DNA of 64,000 bases from Tubulanus polymorphus (Eukaryota; Nemertea; Palaeonemertea; Tubulaniformes; Tubulanidae): NCBI RefSeq assembly GCF_964204645.1, contig NC_134030.1, positions 9,236,278 through 9,300,277 on the forward strand, written 5' to 3'. This document shows, in pieces, positions 202 to 62,419 of the stretch. Made by a program: the position numbers and the translations under genes. The notes under the pieces were generated by a model. The model saw only the letters and a program-made list of their open reading frames with translations, had not been told where the DNA came from and did no database searches. The first letter of the stretch is position 1, and every line of letters starts with the position of its first letter.

Positions 202-3200
202 CTGAAAAATCATTGAATATTCAAGAAAATGATGAATACAAATAAGCAGGTACTGCCTGATTACAGGTATGCTAAAATTTCACACAAATCTCTACGAATT
301 AACAGACGAAATTCTTCTTAACACCAAATGAACTAATGTAGCTTGAAATTCAATGAATACTGGGAATAATTCTCAAACAGCAAGTAGGAAAACATTTTCT
401 TAAAAGAATAATCTTCCTCAATTCTTCACTCTTCCCTGGCAGGGATTCGAACCTGATGGTATCGAGTCGCCACCGTACAAAATCTGCCGCGCTAGACAAG
501 GTGTGCAGCTACATGGGCAGCTAAAATGATGCCAATCAGAAATCCCATTTGTTTCCATTTATAGTTTATCCGCAAAATTTGCCTCAGTGATTAAACAACG
601 GCGGCAATTTGGGCATGTAACTGCGCACCCGGTCTAGTGCGACAGTGTCGTGGCTGAGTCTAGAGATACCATCACGTTTGAATCCCTGCCTGGGGAGGAT
701 GCTATCCACTAACATATGAGTGAAAACATGAAAACAAGACAATTAAAAAGCATCTAAAGAGTATTTCATATACCAATAATGTTTTAAAAGCTGAAAAATA
801 TCTTTAAAAACATCTTGATAAAGCTATTTGTAGCATCTGAAGAATGTGAGACAGTACAACAAGGTATAAATAAAGCCACGCCCAAAATATATCAATTAAT
901 ACAAAGTTTACAAGAATCTTAATTGACTCTGAATATTTCAATGGGAATTCAGATAAGCAATTGCCAGATACCTCTGAATCTGAGAACTAAATATTGGAAG
1001 TAACAGAAGACAGAAATAGCCCCAGAACGTATATCAGATATCTGAATGGATAGATGAAGAGCCCCCACCTAGTCCGCAATCTCCTTTCAAGAGGGGAAAT
1101 CATAATACGTCTGCGAGTGATCTTATTACACAAACATCACGCTGTTGTCCAGAAACCATAGCAGAAACTGATTAACGAAAACTAGAGAATGGCAAGCAGT
1201 ATATAACCTTGGTGTAATCATTGAATCACTCCGAAGTACAACCCTGTCTACTTTTCTATCTCCACAGTCCGCTCGTTTTCTCTCCGCTGCATGTCCATCC
1301 ACTTACAATCCTTGTCGCCCAACTCCCGAGCTCTGTGTATCTGTCGCTCCCTGTCACCGTCTCATCCCGGGCTCAAATATGACTTATCTTAGGATTCGAA
1401 CGTGTGTTTTAGAGTTCATAACCGGGATCAAACGTAGACGATTTGGCCTGGGCCAAATTGGCGCGGATCAGGCTTAATTAGAGAGCGCGTTCAACCACGC
1501 GTTCGATACAAAACAATGCTTAAACAAAGCTCTGTAAGTAATTAACGGAACCAGTTGCAATTCACATGCCCAATTTTACCCGTTCCAAAATTCTGACCCA
1601 GGACAAACAGCCACGGGCCCATTTGGCACCTGTGTGAACGGTCGTTCTGGGCCAAATTTTGTCGCTTGGGCCAAAAACGCTCGAGGAACCAGACCCAGGT
1701 ATTCACTAAAGTTCTACAACGCTAGATAAACAATTGTACAACAATTAGGCAAAACTTCGTGAAGAACTGAGTGCTAGATAAACGAAACGCGCAATATTTT
1801 ATCAACTGTGTTTATAATGCTCTTTATGTGAAGAATTTGAGCATATATTTGCAAACGTTCTCAGTTACAAGAGGCGTAAATATGTAATATGGCAAAGATT
1901 ACAGGTTTTTCTCAAGAGAAAGTGATAATTCTATATAGACCAGAGGTGTAGATATTTATAGAATTGTATGCATATATACCTAATACTTATCAGATGGCTT
2001 TGTGGAGATTTTCTCTTGGGGAGCATCCTACCGCGGCAAACGAGCGCATGAAAAATTGTAAAAAACGCTTTGCCACGCGATCGGGCTAACCAAATAACAA
2101 AACTCAAAAGTCGAAGTTCAGAAATAAGAATGCTAAAAATCATGCGATTGCAAAATTCCTGATTTGGTTAGATTCCAATGAGTAAGGAAAATTGAAAGGG
2201 TTTTAAAGGAGTTTTAGTCATTTTGCTTAAATCGAAGGCATTTCAGGCACCTTTAAGAGCATTTTCTGTTTATGAGTTTTTTTAGGAATCAAGGAGTCGC
2301 AAGAACCCCGAAATTTATGTCGGTTAAACGCTTAAACGTTGCAATAAAACTATCCAGACACCTCGGTAGGTTTTAAGGCCATGCAGCAATTTCATTTCTA
2401 GTGCCGCGCAGTAATTTGATTTGATTTGATTTGCGGCAAAGCGCGTCGTGCGCCGGAAAATGTGAAAAATCACTCGCATAAATTGACGCCCAGACGCGTT
2501 GTCTGGTCTTTCCATCAGACTAAGATGTCTTCTCGGCGGCGCGCGACGAGCAACGTTTCAACACTACATGTCCACGACAACGATGATCGTCGGGTATGAG
2601 ATAAGCGTTTATCAATCGGTCACCATGGCGATGACGATGATGCAAAAGGTTACAAAGACGAACGTTTGTCCTCCGTCTGCACGTAGCAAATATCACTCAT
2701 TGAGAGAAACCCGCGCGATATCAATTTAAACAACTGTCACAATTTCAACAATCACTACGTATATTGTCCGGATTATAGAATGACGTTATAGTATGAACAA
2801 CTCACTCGCGGAGCCTTATATGTAGATCATAATCAGGACGGAAACTGATCCAGATTAAGTGATCAATATTATGGAGGTTTTGATTGACGGTAGACGACAT
2901 TGCGGAGTGGTGTGGGCGAGTGGTTAGAGCGTTTGAGTTTTTGGGAAGTCAGGTCGTGGGTTTGAAACCTGTACATTACAATAGTGTAATGTAGTGTAAC
3001 CCCCTCCCCCCCCCTGGGCAAGACACTCATCCCCATTTGTCTCTCTCCACCCAGGAGTGAGCAGGTACCTGGCGTGATAGATGACTCCTACGCGCCTAGC
3101 AGCTGCTCGGATGTTACTTCTCCCCAGGGAGAGATGGCTGATACATGGTTTGAGATATAGGCTAGGGGTAATAATACCAACTAATGAAAGCACTGTTGAA

Positions 3201-54336: not shown

Positions 54337-57300
54337 ATGGTTTCGTCTTTTGTGAGAATATCAGCGATTGTTATGTTATTATTTTCTGCGAAAATAAACG
54401 CAAACTCTAAAGCCCGACGCAATTTCATCTCGGTGCCGAAGTTACCTGGAAATGAATACTACCAATGTCCAGACGAAGAGACATTGGAAATCAACTGCGC
54501 CGGAAAATGCACAAGGCTTGGAAACAAAGATTGTGTGGGATTCTTTTTTAGTGACCAGAAATCATCCGGTGTTCGGTGCTTTCTGATAATGGAAAGAAAA
54601 GAAGATTGTAGCAGAGCACAACAACTAGAAAACGTCAAAGGTTCCATCTACGTCAATGTTGGTATGTATGTTAAACAGTTATATTAATTCCTTCAAGTAA
54701 AGTCGCCGTACATTAGAAACAAATCAGATAATCCTTTATTTCACCTTATATTAGTTGAGATTTATTCTGAAATATACACGTAGACCTACATGTAGGATGG
54801 AAATTGTTCTGTTTCATTGCCGCCAATCTAACTATCCCAGTATTTTTAGTGCCGTTTTTTTCATTAGTTCGATTACGGAAACACCGACGAACTTTTCCGA
54901 TTGCTAGGCATAAAAAAAAAAATTTAATTTTCATTTCCCCCCCGCCCCTCATTATTAAACGTAGATATGAACATAGAAATAAACAGCTATAACTTTTTCC
55001 ACTGCCACATAATCCTTTGACATCACGCACAAAAATTGCAGTGGACAATGGTGTTCTAATGGTAATATATATTTGTTGGGTTCGTTCAGTGAATAGCGTC
55101 TCTTGTAAAATGACGGCGTCAGTTATGTGTGTAGGCAATAAACAGACAATATTCGGGTATCAAGACGACCTCAAAATTAAGCAAATTTTTATTCATTTTT
55201 CAAATTCCACTCCCCGATCACTTCATTCATTCTCCTTTTATTGTTTTTCTTTTATTGCGCATCCTTTTTGTTTTTGTCTGTTTGTTGTTATTGTTGTTTT
55301 CTTCATTTACAATCTTATACTTTTGATCTATGAGGAATAAATTGAAATTGGATTTGTTTAAAGAAATATTTTTCTTTTTGATTAAACTCCAAAGTCCACC
55401 AAATCCGTAATCCAACTTAAAATGTGAAAAATTACGTCCCAAGGATAATAAACGAGTAATTGTACGGCTCCAAACTATGTATGTACATCATGGTTTGTGC
55501 ATATTCCAAAGCGCGAGTGTAGACTATAAATTATTATATTACTTCCGTTGATATGCGGTGTCGTCTTTTTTCAGATATCGCATACAACATGTCATTGTTA
55601 ACAGAAGTAACCCCTCAAACAACTACTCATGTTGGTGCAGGCTCTAGTCTAATGACAACAGAACCTACTGCATCAAAGACTGAATTGACTAGAGGAGCTA
55701 GCATCGGAACAGCAACAACCGTAAGAACAACTTCTACACCTCGAGCTGAATTGACTAGTGGAGCCAGCATGGGAACAGCAACAACTGTAAGAGCGACTTC
55801 CACATCTCAGACTGAATCGACTAGTGGAGCTAGCATCGGAACAACTACAACTGTAAGAACAACTTCTACACCTCAAGCTGAATCGACTAGAGGGGCTAGC
55901 ATGGGAACAGCAACAACTGTAAAAACACCTTCCACATCTCAAGCTGAATCGACGAGTGGCGTCAGCGTAGGAACAGCAACAACTGTAAGAACAACTTCTA
56001 CACCTCAAGCTGAATCGACTAGTGGAGCCAGCATCGGAACAGCAACAACTGTAAGAGCGACTTCCACATCTCAGACTGAATCGACTAGTGGAGCTAGCAT
56101 CGGAACAACTACAACTGTAAGAACAACTTCTACACCTCAAGCTGAATCGACTAGAGGGGCTAGCATGGGAACAGCAACAACTGTAAAAACACCTTCCACA
56201 TCTCAAGCTGAATCGACGAGTGGCGTCAGCGTAGGAACAGCAACAACTGTAAGAACAACTTCTACACCTCAAGCTGAATCGACTAGTGGAGCCAGCATCG
56301 GAACAGCAACAACTGTAAGAGCGACTTCCACATCTCAGACTGAATCGACTAGTGGAGCTAGCATCGGAACAACTACAACTGTAAGAACAACTTCTACACC
56401 TCAAGCTGAATCGACTAGAGGGGCTAGCATGGGAACAGCAACAACTGTAAAAACACCTTCCACATCTCAAGCTGAATCGACGAGTGGCGTCAGCGTAGGA
56501 ACAGCAACAACTGTAAGAACAACTTCTACACCTCAAGCTGAATCGACTAGTGGAGCCAGCATCGGAACAGCAACAACTGTAAGAGCGACTTCCGCATCTC
56601 AGACTGAATCGACCAGCAGAGCTAGTATAAGAACAGCAACAACTGTAAGAACAACTTCCACATCTCAGACCGAATCGATTGGTGGAACAAGCATAGGAAC
56701 AACTACACGTTTAGAAGCAACTTCCAACTCTCAACCTGAATCGACGAGTGGCGTCAGCGTGGGAACAGCAACAACTGTAGGAGCGACTTCTACATCTAGT
56801 CCTAAATCGACCAGCGGAGCTAGCACGGGGACAGCTTCAACTGTAGGAGATGGTGCCAGTACATCGACAGCGATGGCGCCTGGAACCACAAAAACTACTG
56901 CAACTATTATGAAAACTGCTTCAACCGTAGGAATTCCTAGTACATCGTCAACTGCCACATCGGGACCGACTGATGATTCAAGCAAGGGAACAACTACAAC
57001 TGTAGGAGCTGGTTTATCGCCAACGACGATGCCTGAAACCAAAAAAATGAATGCAGCTAGTACGGGAACAATAACGACTGGAGGAGCTTCATCTGGACCG
57101 ACAAGTGCAGCTAGCATGGGAACAACTGATCGAGCAGTTACGGGTTCTATCGTATCGACAACGGTAACTCAATCAACTACCGTAAGTAGCATAGGGACAA
57201 CTACAGCCGTAGGAGCTGGTTCTAGTATATTCACAGCTGCTACCTCCCAAACTGACCCAACTAGTGTAGCATCCACGGGGACGACTTCCGCCATAGATGT

Positions 57301-58615
57301 GGGCAGTAGCGATTCAACAACAACAACAACAACAACAACCAGAAGTGAAGAATCAACCAGTACAAGTGCAACTATCAAAGCAACAACAAATTCAGCAGGT
57401 GTTAATTCTAGCGTATCGATAACTACATCTCAAACAAGCGCAGCTAACATTGGAACAGTCACAAATGTAGGCGATAGTGCGAGTGTTTCGGCAACCATGT
57501 CTACATCTGAAACAACTTCTTGGGAGAATATACCTACAACGTTACCAACTACTGCTACAGTGGATGGGGGTACAAGTAAAATAATAACCTCCGCACATCA
57601 AAGTACAGTTAGTGCAGATTTGAGCACTGACGCGATAGTTGGCACGTCTAAAACTGGAACAACAGAAACTGTGGTATTGGAAACTACCTATTCAAAAATG
57701 GATGCTGCGCCAACGGTGCTAACTGACACAGTAGGTACTAAAACCCCCTCTAGCATAACAAACACTATTGCTACCACGTCTTCAACTGCCAGCATCAAGA
57801 CTTCATCAGGGGTAACAAGCCAAGCGATTACTAAATCTGTTTCACCAACTGTAACGACAACCGCATCTATAGTATCGTCAACTACAGCTGCTAATCATAC
57901 GAAACGTTGTGCGTCGGGTTTCAAGAAAGTCACTACAGCCAATGGTGATTTGGCGTGTTTCAAATTGTTCGGCTGGGATCGTTTATCATGGAACGCGGCG
58001 CGTGCGGCCTGCCATCACAACGGAGCCAAGCTGGCCGAACCGCAAACTGTAGAGATGTTCGACAAACTGGTGTATGAATTTTTCACAGGTTCAGATGCGA
58101 TAAACCAAACAGGTAACATATTTGGGAAATATTTGATTCTTGGGTTGCTGGATTATGTAACAACCAGTGATTGTAAGGGTATGCTGTTGCAGCCTGTGTA
58201 ACATTCTTAATCTATTTATTGACAAAAGTTAGACAAGGGACGCTTTGCATTTTCCGATGAATCCTATGCATATTTCGTTTTCATAATTGATATGAGCTCT
58301 ATTATTACCAATGTTTTATTTTGAATAAGACCATGTGTTTTCCTATTCTGTTTACTAACTCACCTCATGAATCTTATTTCTTATTGCAAAGAAGCTGTCG
58401 GTACTTCACTCATCTGGCTGGGCTTGTTCGATGAAGATAAGTCGGGACCTGCACCATCGAAGTGGCAGACCACGGGAAAGATGATCGAGTACACAAACCG
58501 ATGGGATGAAGAAAACCCTATTTCGGGTTGTTCTTGCAAGGGCATTCGAAGACCTTCCTACCGATTAGCTGGGGGAAAGTGCAGGGTAATAATGCCATAT
58601 ATTTGCGAACAATAG
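54337..58615 (+). CDS. Secreted PAN-mucin-C-type lectin protein, complete, 3 exons
   Basis: Exons 54337..54661, 55575..58112 and 58392..58615 sum to 3087 bp (1028 residues plus TAG), with both introns in phase 1. The order is a signal peptide (VRISAIVMLLFSAKINANS), a PAN/apple-like cysteine domain (about 40-105, with YQCPDEE, CAGKCTRLGNKDCVGF, VRCFLI), about 760 residues of Thr/Ser/Ala repeats expected to carry O-glycans, and a C-type lectin domain (about 886-1028: CASGFKKVTT, LACFKLFGWDRLSWNAARAA, SLIWLGLFDED, GGKCRVIMPYICEQ). The calcium/sugar motif is not canonical: DEENPIS stands where EPN or QPD is usual. Likely an extracellular mucus or immune-recognition protein; the ligand cannot be inferred. 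The ATG was chosen because it immediately precedes the hydrophobic leader. Confidence 0.85.
55680..56830 (+). repeat. 66-bp coding tandem repeat with 264-bp higher-order unit
   Basis: The 22-residue unit (ESTSGASIGTATTVRATSTS type) repeats about 17 times. Sets of four units form a 264-bp block: GAGCGACTTCC occurs at 55791, 56055, 56319 and 56583, exactly 264 bp apart, and blocks are nearly identical over about 800 bp. Units at both ends of the array are more diverged, the usual sign of unequal exchange in the middle. Copy number may be collapsed or expanded in assembly. Confidence 0.93.
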
Positions 58616-59048: not shown

Positions 59049-61023
59049 ATGACACCTACGACGCTGATACAGATGGTTTTACTGGTATCCGCAGCATTTA
59101 GCCAGGATCAAGCGGATTTCATTCAGGTCACAGGTTACTCCGAAAGCGGATATCTATGTCCGATTGATGCGAAAACCGAGGTCCAATGCGGTAGTATGTG
59201 TTTAAGGTTAGAAACAGCCAAATGTTTCGGGTTCGCATTTGATAAAAAGCGATGTTTGCTATTCACACATGCAGCGTGCGTGTCAACAACATGTTTTGAA
59301 GATGTCGACATTCCCGTATATATTTCTTCTGATGACGGTAAGGAGACTTTTTAAGATTTTTGCAAGCTTCAAATATGATCTAGGTCTACAACATTTCATG
59401 CCTGCCTCACCCATGTATATGCAGAAAGATAGAGTCTAAGAGGGAATATCCATAAAAAGAAACGTTTTTCTAACCGAATACTACTCAACCTCTAGACAGA
59501 ACAACGCATGAAAAAAAAAGTTTTGTGCAAAACGTGTTTTCTGTTTTGATAAAACCAACGTTTTGTCGTGTGAGTTTGGCTTCAATGGTTTATTTCCAAG
59601 TTCTGTGGTTCAAAATCTCATAGATGACAACATCTGTGTGAAATGCCCTGATGAATTAATTCGTAGCTTGATTTTCAGACGGTGTATTTGCAAGCTCTTC
59701 GATTGCCGCTGTCACCAGCCCAATCTCTGAATCGACCAATTCTACGACGTCAGAAGATGCATGTAAATCTGACTTCAGAAGGGTAACGACGTCCGAGGGA
59801 GAATCTTCTTGTTTTAGATTGAACGGTTGGTCGGAACCGACCGACCGCTTGAGCTGGGACGATGCAGTGTCATTCTGCCAGGATACCGGAGACAAATTAG
59901 CCGAACCAGTAACCGTTGAGATGTACGATGAATCTGACCAGCTATTCTGTATCTGTTATCTTTTTAATGATTTGGAAAATCTTAGTACACTTACTGTCTT
60001 ATTTCACCCGAAGAAGAACCGTTTATTTGCACGACAGATTATGACCTTGGATGAATACTAGCACAGGCCTAGGTATGACTTCCCAAGAACCTTAGTGTCT
60101 GATGAACCACAGGTGGGTACACGTAAGGAGCGTAGACCGACGGAGATCACTCTTGAAATAACCACTTCCAAGTGGCCGAAGTTATGACCAGCGCGACGGA
60201 TTAGCTAAGATACTCATTATACGGTCCCTGTTCCTTTTCGTTCCATTCCGGGAAGTATCATATGCCAGTTTAAACATTAATTCTACATGAACGGATATAC
60301 TTCAATCTAATCACGTTTCTAATCACTCATCGCTCGATATTGGCCATAGTTCAATGAACGGTCATTTGAATAATGAAGATAGGTGTACTTGATCCGGTGG
60401 GCGTGTGATATAGGTGATAACGAGATGCGCTCCTATAGTTTCGTTTGAAATTCATACCAGATAAATCCATAAAATATGTCTATACAGTCTATGTTAGCGG
60501 TAATCGGTCATGTTCAAGAACGAATCTTAAATGAGAAGACGCGAGTTTAGTTCACTGGGATTCTAAAAGATTTTCCCGTTTTAAGGTTCTCGACAATCCA
60601 CTTCTGATTTTTGAACTGGGTCCTAAGAGGCGAATTCACCGTTTGATTTGAACTTGAAATATAGAACGAGAAGGATTTTGATGGGACGTTACCCGTTACC
60701 TGGGGCATCGACCTCGAAGAGCGCGAGTGCTGAAAGTAAATAATGACCGCTGGTGTCCGCCAACGAGCTTTCATAAACAATGTAATGAAACAGAATGTGG
60801 AGTCCCCAATATATCAGTGATACTTGTAATATCTTTGGTTTTAGGTGATGGACCACCTAAACTGACTTGGCTGGGTCTCAAAGACCGAGACGGAAATGGA
60901 CCAAATTTACCAGTTTGGCAGAGCATAAACACGAGCATCGGTTACACAAACCGCTGGGACGACGACCCACAATTTCAAAAAGAATGTATAATTCAATTCA
61001 ATTCAATCTTTATTCAGCATTAA
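59049..61023 (+). pseudogene. Second PAN/C-type lectin paralogue, lectin domain truncated by a retrotransposon
   Basis: Exon 1 59049..59337 encodes a leader (LIQMVLLVSAAFSQDQ) and PAN-like domain (CGSMCLRLETAKCFGFAFDK). Exon 2 59679..59948 carries a short Ser/Thr linker and the first half of a C-type lectin domain (CKSDFRRVTTSEGESSC, LSWDDAVSFCQDTGDKLAEP). Exon 3 begins 60845 (LTWLGLKDRDGNG, TNRWDDDPQFQKEC) and is cut at about 60987 by a non-LTR element. The frame then takes 11 element-derived residues and stops at 61021-61023. Phases match the upstream paralogue (phase 1). The exon 2 donor (CTGTATCT) is weak. A shortened secreted protein is still possible, so 'pseudogene' is a best guess; no internal stop is present before the insertion. 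Confidence 0.65.
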
Positions 61024-62365
61024 CATTAATAAAACATTGTTTGCAACTGATACAAATTCGGTAAAATCAAGTATATACATAATAGGAGATAAACAAATAA
61101 TAAAATGAAGCATAATTAACACTAATTACAGATGAGTTAAAACATAATTGAAAATATACAGAACATTAATCGAAGAAATATTAGGACAATGGCAGACCGA
61201 GTTTAATAAATTTGGCTAGCTGAACAATGCTGGTTGTAGGGTTTAGGTTGTCGAAAGTGGAGATTAAACTATTAACGTCTAAGATAGCTATATTTAATTC
61301 CTTTCTCAGATTGGCAACTCTTTTACAAGGGAACAAAAAGTGACATTCATCGTCCAACACATTACAAATATTGCACAAACGATTTTCCTTTTCTATACCG
61401 CGGTGTCTACCTTTTTCAATAATTAAGCTGTGAGTAGACGTCCGTAATTTAGCAACAGCATTTCTGAGGTTAAAATCTTTTAGCACTAATAAATATTTTT
61501 CTAACTTAAAACTTACTTTAACTGCTTTATAAAAATTATAACGGGAATGATCACTTGATCTTATGTCCTTATGCCAGAGATCCACAAAGATAGCTGACAG
61601 ACGCTTTCTAATACCCAGAATAATGCTATTCGAATAATGCCCCAAGTTGTTCCAAACATTTGAGTACCCTAAATTTGATAGAATTGATTTAACGGTAGAT
61701 ATATAATTGAATTTGCCCTCCCTGTCATCTTCATATTGTTCTAGAAAAGACAAGTAGATCAATGATTTGCTATTACCCGACGACATAACTGACCTCCAGT
61801 ACTTCAAAGCTGACATAGTAATCTCAATATAAAGTGGAACCTCTCCCAAGTCACCAAGAATAGGTAAAATTGGAGCCTTAGAATGAAGACCCATTATGAA
61901 CCTAAAAAATCTTGACTGCAGCTTTTGCACTACCCATTTGTTATATGGTAAACCCATATCCGTGAGTGACCCATTTGGTTTCTTTAGAAATGACATATAG
62001 GGCACAACTCCCCAAACTTCACTACCATACATAACTATCGGTTTGAGTAAACTGTTAAAAAGCTGTAGTTGTTGTAGAATACATAAATCCTTGAAACCAG
62101 GCATTTTAGTTAGATTGAAAAGCCCTCTTAAACCCTTACTCAACAGTGAGTCTTGTAGCAGATTGAATTTGCCATTACAATGGATGTTGAAACCCAGATA
62201 GTTGCAACTTTTAACACAATCTATAACATCATCGTTAAAAATGTAGCTATTTGTGCAGTCTAATTTACCCGCTTTGTTAAATTCAACAATACACGATTTA
62301 GGAACATTTACTTCCAGCCCCCAGAATTTACAATAAAGCTCAAGCTTAGACTTACTAGACAGACA
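60987..62365 (-). mobile_element. 5'-truncated non-LTR retrotransposon (LINE), reverse-transcriptase C-terminal part
   Basis: From about 62363 to 61181 the minus strand is open for about 394 codons. It includes ELYCKFWGLEVNVPKSCIVE and a YLGFNIHCNGKF motif typical of the end of LINE reverse transcriptase (the NxxKS and YLG blocks). A long C-terminal region follows, ending in a cysteine/histidine motif (CNICNVLDDECHFLFPC). The 3' tail is ATTGAATTGAATTGAATT, a short tandem tail as in CR1/Rex/RTE-like elements. The open frame without stops suggests recent insertion. Clade assignment is uncertain. No clear target-site duplication was seen. Confidence 0.85.
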
Positions 62366-62419
62366 TTATCTGGAGGATTGTGTTGGAAACAACGTCCTTT
62401 CATCTGCGAACAGTTGTGA
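62366..62419 (+). pseudogene. Separated 3' end of the second lectin's terminal exon
   Basis: Right after the retrotransposon, the plus strand reads LSGGLCWKQRPFICEQL and stop. This matches the end of the upstream paralogue (LAGGKC..MPYICEQ) with the last conserved cysteines. It is the missing end of the lectin domain, about 1.38 kb from its other half. Confidence 0.82.

Follow-up and report, generated by a model that had tools for sequence, protein, structure and literature searches.

The locus described here raises the question of what becomes of a gene when a LINE enters its last coding exon and supplies, from its own tail, a stop codon followed by an AATAAA hexamer. It lies in a 64,000-nucleotide stretch of Tubulanus polymorphus DNA, the whole of which is referred to below as the window (contig C6, positions 9236278-9300277). 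The sequence-only reading had suggested that the truncated transcript could be stably made, yielding a secreted protein with a PAN domain and half a C-type lectin. We favour a different outcome, with a probability of roughly 0.78: the interrupted gene, gene B, would be a loss-of-function copy, either a null allele or a fresh pseudogene, that carries a recent LINE insertion and a second lesion.

Gene B belongs to a row of seven related genes (A to G) in tandem, and is the one hit by the LINE. The last exons of gene A lie at ~57.9-58.6 kb of the window, gene C starts at 63.4 kb and extends past the window's end, and genes D, E, F and G follow just beyond it on the same contig. Genes B to G share an arrangement of three exons. 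The first encodes a cysteine-rich PAN-like domain; a lectin-like domain is divided between the other two, with its first half and a linker in the second exon and its second half in the third. The exon ends were inferred from reading frames, GT/AG dinucleotides and the sister genes rather than from RNA. The closest sister of gene B is gene E, with 73% identity in exon 1 and, where the two can be matched, 68% in exon 2 and 67% in exon 3; exon 1 of gene B is 45-73% identical to its counterparts in five array sisters.

The translation of gene B begins at an ATG at 59049-59051. Exon 1 (59049-59337, plus strand) encodes, as judged from sequence and translation, a hydrophobic N terminus, recognised by eye, and the cysteine-rich PAN-like domain, and ends in a phase 1 donor (ACG/GTAAGG, score 9.7). 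The part of exon 2 that is homologous to the six sisters (59679-59932, plus strand), delimited by tblastn and pairwise alignment with gene E, contains a Ser/Thr-rich linker and the first lectin-like half, and its acceptor is intact. Exon 3 is preceded by a TTTTAG acceptor and is found in two pieces, both on the plus strand. Its 5' part (60845-60989) is open through the second lectin-like half as far as cysteine C2 in QFQKEC, the TGT of which lies at 60985-60987, and two further bases. The 3' part (62350-62419) encodes LTRQTLSGGLCWKQRPFICEQL, including lectin cysteines C3 and C4, and closes with a TGA at 62417-62419. The exon 3 ends are intact in all six other genes of the array.

Several other features of the array were observed. 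Gene A contains a very long, repetitive, Ser/Thr-rich (mucin-like) open stretch (55523-58201) ahead of the same lectin half-domain, where its sisters have a short linker. Exon 2 of gene F (L017, ~2846-3040) lacks both early lectin cysteines (AILLGF and SSSFKL, vs AC..GF and SSCFKL in the sisters), a paired absence consistent with a single disulfide having been lost. Intron 2 of gene B holds an old dispersed repeat of ~88 bp (60083-60170, no strand assigned), which is 77-89% identical to at least 49 other matches with 40 of 167 candidates scored. A second short dispersed repeat in a gene B intron (59513-59590) has at least 38 other genome matches at 77-89% identity, with 40 candidates scored.

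That the reversed 3' tail of a LINE splits the last lectin-like exon after QFQKEC, as the sequence-only reading had it, was confirmed by the sequence and by sister copies of the element. The inserted copy occupies 60990-62349 on the minus strand, antisense to gene B, carries the C-terminal part of a reverse-transcriptase protein, and has an open frame at 61181-62365 of that strand. At its left end lies the 3' tail of the element, which reads (AATTC)n on the plus strand. The 268 Mb genome holds at least 46 matches to the element, the window copy included (40 of 71 candidates scored), and 13 of the 45 others listed are 98-99% identical to it. The sister copies L002, L003, L004, L006 and L007 are 98.7-99.2% identical to the window copy over their common parts. 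Because L002, L005 and L006 continue beyond the equivalent of 62349, the window copy is 5'-truncated; the matches of L003, L004, L007 and L008 terminate at other points. The tail is repeated (AATTC)n in five of seven copies and about one unit in L005, and L006 stops short of it. The copies thus display the common 3' end and variable 5' truncation of a LINE family.

Reverse transcriptase was recognised by Pfam in L002 (RVT_1, E 6.1e-29); it was not listed for the window copy, which is truncated downstream of that domain. An APE-type endonuclease was recognised in L026 (Exo_endo_phos, E 7.7e-10), which is 97% identical to L002 over a 212-residue stretch of the reverse transcriptase. Inspection of the reading frames, without a Pfam scan, revealed no recognisable endonuclease-like frame in the 3.5 kb upstream of L002 (L024). 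By its predicted reverse transcriptase and endonuclease, the element is a LINE of the APE-type non-LTR kind.

In the 1318 alignment columns for which four or more of the six sequences (one of them the window copy) have a base, four substitutions are private to the window copy (0.30%, 95% Poisson range 0.08-0.78%). Judging from these figures, the LINE family is young and the insertion recent, as far as the assembly can show. Within-species diversity of many invertebrates exceeds 0.30%. Since the private divergence lies below that level, it is plausible that the insertion is still polymorphic in the species. Against this part of our explanation stands the lack of a second allele in the assembly: neither flank detected an empty site elsewhere in it (stretches of N and missing haplotypes being possible), and a genome search with the exon 3 peptide gave seven matches, all in this array.

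The site of insertion can be read from gene E, which is unbroken there (TGTATGGGCCACAGACTTACC), while gene B has TGTAT, the element, and ACTTACT. Two bases at the 5' junction of the LINE, AG, are common to element and host, and the host bases missing between the halves of gene B number nine, or seven if AG is counted as host, a figure taken from a sister gene and not from an ancestral B sequence or an empty allele. The end of the lectin-like domain, which was said to sit intact on the far side from 62366, is indeed present and open to its TGA; GGLCW starts at 62372, and between the halves 7-9 bases that gene E has are missing. Through the insertion ~26 C-terminal codons are predicted to be out of frame, 22 of which are still there past the element.

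No target-site duplication, which was looked for as a mark of LINEs, was found: there is no flanking repeat of at least 14 nt, and a search at the junctions for repeats down to 4 nt, with shifts of a few bases allowed, gave none either. As outlined in part of a published account (PMC2881922), duplication is one of several outcomes of non-LTR insertion, and target-site deletion and 5' truncation are also described. The cases of target-primed reverse transcription with deletion presented there likewise involve loss of target bases, a truncated 5' end and a short overlap at the 5' junction; against them as outlined, we noted no notable difference, except that the size of the deletion is here drawn from a sister gene instead of an empty allele. 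The insertion most likely arose by reverse transcription of the RNA of a young APE-endonuclease LINE at a site in the last exon of gene B, in antisense orientation and 5'-truncated, with a target deletion of 7-9 bases, a two-base AG overlap and no duplication. The element's tail would then supply the stop, and the ~26 C-terminal codons would leave the frame.

The Lectin_C model of Pfam gave 20.3 bits (E 0.00096) for exon 3 of gene E alone and 15 bits for the predicted product of gene B, both under the cut-off of 22.6, and the array was not among the 63 matches listed in a genome-wide Lectin_C search (150 of 342 candidates scored). The joined lectin exons of gene E matched nine solved sequences at E <= 0.1, the best being 1bj3_A (E 0.00026), with which the three cysteines of the second half (C2, C3 and C4) are aligned. 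We therefore write "lectin-like", as the Pfam cut-off is not reached and the label derives mainly from the solved-lectin match. The N-terminal domain is called only "PAN-like" because its PAN_1 score (PF00024, 15.9 bits) is under the cut-off of 21.4; a PF00024 match at E <= 1 was obtained for two of six array members. The labels "C-type lectin" and "PAN" originally applied to the gene accordingly stand in this weakened form. A limited literature search found no published account joining a C-type lectin, a PAN domain and a tandem layout in an invertebrate.

By the alignment of gene E to the solved lectin, C3 and C4 of gene B are placed beyond the insertion. We take the four cysteines, named C1 to C4, to pair as C1-C4 and C2-C3, in which case a half-lectin ending in the element would hold C1 and C2 without their partners C4 and C3. 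A folded half-lectin is unlikely from this arrangement. The N-terminal domain of gene B could fold alone.

The element's contribution to the reading frame is as originally located. Eleven new codons (IIQFNSIFIQH) and a TAA at 61021-61023 span 60988-61023 on the plus strand and come from the LINE tail; an AATAAA at 61028-61033, also on the plus strand and antisense to the element, follows within that tail. The TAA depends on the T at 61021, a base private to the window copy among those compared. In all four young copies that extend over this position (L002, L003, L004 and L007) it is A, with which the stop in the frame of gene B would come two codons further on. The hexamer is present at the equivalent position in two of six other copies (L002 and L004), replaced by AATGAA in L003 and L007, and not there in L005 and L008. 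The idea that stop and AATAAA form a fixed device of the LINE family is ruled out by the private T and by the presence of the hexamer in only two of the six copies.

The plus strand of the LINE copy contains five AATAAA in total. When positions 60990-61400 were shuffled 5000 times with dinucleotides preserved, a stop occurred within 11 codons in 55% of shuffles, and an AATAAA followed the first stop within 100 nt in 23% and within 10 nt in 1.4%. A stop is to be expected from such an insertion; the tight spacing of stop and AATAAA is mildly unusual, but it was chosen after the fact. Among the other genes of the array, an AATAAA lies in the 500 nt behind the stop of A, D and E, and this interval is free of AATAAA and ATTAAA in C, F and G; because three of six lack both, AATAAA is no reliable guide to transcript ends in this array. 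The hexamer at 61028 is a possible polyadenylation signal. In general, where an element is AT-rich, a stop with an AATAAA close by argues only weakly for a new functional transcript end, and both vary among the sister copies here. Premature polyadenylation by LINE sequence is reportedly dealt with by Perepelitsa-Belancio and Deininger (2003) and Han et al. (2004).

The insertion is accompanied by a second lesion, at the end of exon 2. The tail of that exon (LVYEFFTGPSAV..SG or close to it) and the CAG/GT donor behind it are kept in six of six sisters and absent in gene B, where they are replaced by a non-homologous stretch (59933-60061, plus strand) that is open to a TAG at 60059-60061. Over the first 29 bases past the break, gene B agrees with gene E at nine positions, vs 23-27 in the five other sisters. 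Nothing clearly related to the replacing sequence, 59933-60360, was seen elsewhere in the array. Intron 2 of gene B contains no clear copy of the missing tail, the best tblastn match there being nine residues long (E 0.037). A mobile element at the break was also considered: a genome search with 59900-60843 returned the locus itself and the repeat at ~60083-60170, which lies off the break (40 of 167 candidates scored).

The absence of a repeat that would explain the break at 59932/59933 is what one might see if one or both lesions were assembly errors, for example a haplotype mis-join at 59933. This we regard as very unlikely, given that weak homology to the gene E intron resumes at ~60361 (66% identity), and that the LINE junctions look biological, with the tail at the family's 3' end, a 5' truncation and a short overlap.

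Donor strength was scored with approximate weights, and at every expected exon end the highest-scoring GT was treated as the donor. On this scale the exon 2 donors of the sisters score 7.0-12.8 (the best GT of each expected stretch), and the GTs of the 30-kb array have a median of -1.04 and a 90th percentile of 3.9. Between the break and the TAG, gene B has four in-phase GTs (-2.35, -5.04, -3.69 and -5.46); two GC dinucleotides lie in 59933-60061, neither of them in a donor context. Of the GTs with higher scores, 60073 (5.7) is past the stop and 59783 (5.5) is out of phase. Two more, at 59763 (4.0) and 59826 (4.5), are in phase inside exon 2; both are also present in gene E, and their use would take out much of the first lectin half. 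Splicing over the element was assessed in the same way. The four GTs at 60850-61023 in exon 3 form 11 frame-keeping GT-AG pairs with AGs at 62301-62413, two of which (from GT 60986) create a stop at the join. These GTs score -0.5 to -3.3, vs 7.0 to 12.8 for 12 putative donors of the family. As all four donors score below zero, splicing over the element to any AG in 62301-62413 is unlikely.

For the stable protein first proposed, exons 1, 2 and 3 would have to be spliced, the element's TAA used, the transcript cleaved after the AATAAA at 61028 and nonsense-mediated decay (NMD) escaped, to give a secreted PAN plus half-lectin product. Parts of this account stand: the stop and the hexamer are in place, presumably the stop would be downstream of every exon junction, intron 2 has neither AATAAA nor ATTAAA, a splice over the element looks unlikely, and L1s, as described in part of PMC6466679, carry polyadenylation signals in both directions. 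The product itself is a different matter. It would need one of the four poor donors (-2.35 to -5.46) in place of the lost exon 2 donor, it would lack C3 and C4, its stop is private, and its AATAAA is not kept among the sister LINE copies. We consider such a protein highly improbable.

Other routes from gene B can be predicted. Reading through exon 2 ends at the TAG at 60059-60061, ahead of exon 3 and the element, and gives 223 residues. Were exon 2 left out, exon 1 would run on in phase into exon 3 and translation would end at the stop in the element, after 155 residues; a shortened exon 2 would also reach this stop. By every route the predicted lectin-like domain is without C3 and C4. Skipping of exon 2, or cutting it at 59763 or 59826, with the element's stop and perhaps its AATAAA, would leave an N-terminal domain with a scrap of lectin. 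The inferred phase 1 introns, which keep exons 1 and 3 in frame, the good exon 1 donor (9.7), the TTTTAG acceptor of exon 3, and internal GTs whose scores of 4.0 and 4.5 exceed the array's 90th percentile would all permit it. We hold this to be unlikely, since the exon 2 acceptor is intact, retention of intron 2 with its stop at 60059-60061 is as likely, and the two internal sites are present in gene E as well.

Because gene B combines the insertion with the lost exon 2 end and donor, and its sisters keep intact exon 3 ends, it is most likely a loss-of-function copy. We infer that the two lesions abolish the protein, as we do the splicing and the polymorphism of the insertion. Two further observations count against this explanation: the in-phase GTs inside exon 2 (4.0 and 4.5) could give an in-frame message, and the coding remnants of gene B show no decay.

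The remnants are open throughout, in exon 1, in exon 2 to 59932 and in both halves of exon 3. Of the changes that could be polarised over 203 codons, 18 nonsynonymous and 6 synonymous fell to gene B and 27 and 8 to gene E; these numbers are small, and 50 of the 109 differences between the two genes were left without direction. The counts contain no signal of relaxed selection in gene B over these codons. Of the differences between the two genes over these 203 codons (59085-62416 in gene B), 72 are nonsynonymous and 37 synonymous, which would indicate fast protein change. The lack of decay implies either that both lesions are recent or that some product is kept, and speaks, as far as these exons tell, against gene B being an old pseudogene. 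It is also compatible with a remodelled gene, in which exon 2 is skipped or shortened in phase and the LINE tail acts as the terminator. Such remodelling seems to us a most improbable outcome; if true, a tandem lectin-like gene would, after the loss of its exon 2 donor, have come to encode a short secreted PAN-like protein whose C terminus is new.

As a loss-of-function copy, gene B shows plainly how a LINE breaks a gene within a tandem lectin-like family that changes fast, with an unbroken sister nearby against which the insertion can be read. The insertion is best read as a known kind of event, an ordinary loss of function in one tandem copy. Mouse germ-line insertions of B1 and B2 into exons that truncate genes are listed in PMC6466679, and for one B2 insertion, antisense in an exon, neither mRNA nor protein was detected. 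Gene B resembles these cases in having a non-LTR element in a coding exon, which in the mouse led to protein truncation or loss of mRNA. It differs in that the element is the LINE itself, that the gene is a member of a tandem family and carries a second lesion, and that the event is known from DNA alone. Premature polyadenylation by LINE sequence within genes, through the sense-strand signals of intronic L1, is described in the part of PMC3192792 that bears on it. As in those cases, a LINE poly(A) signal could end the host transcript; unlike them, gene B has a single antisense hexamer, variable among copies of the element, that lies in an exon.
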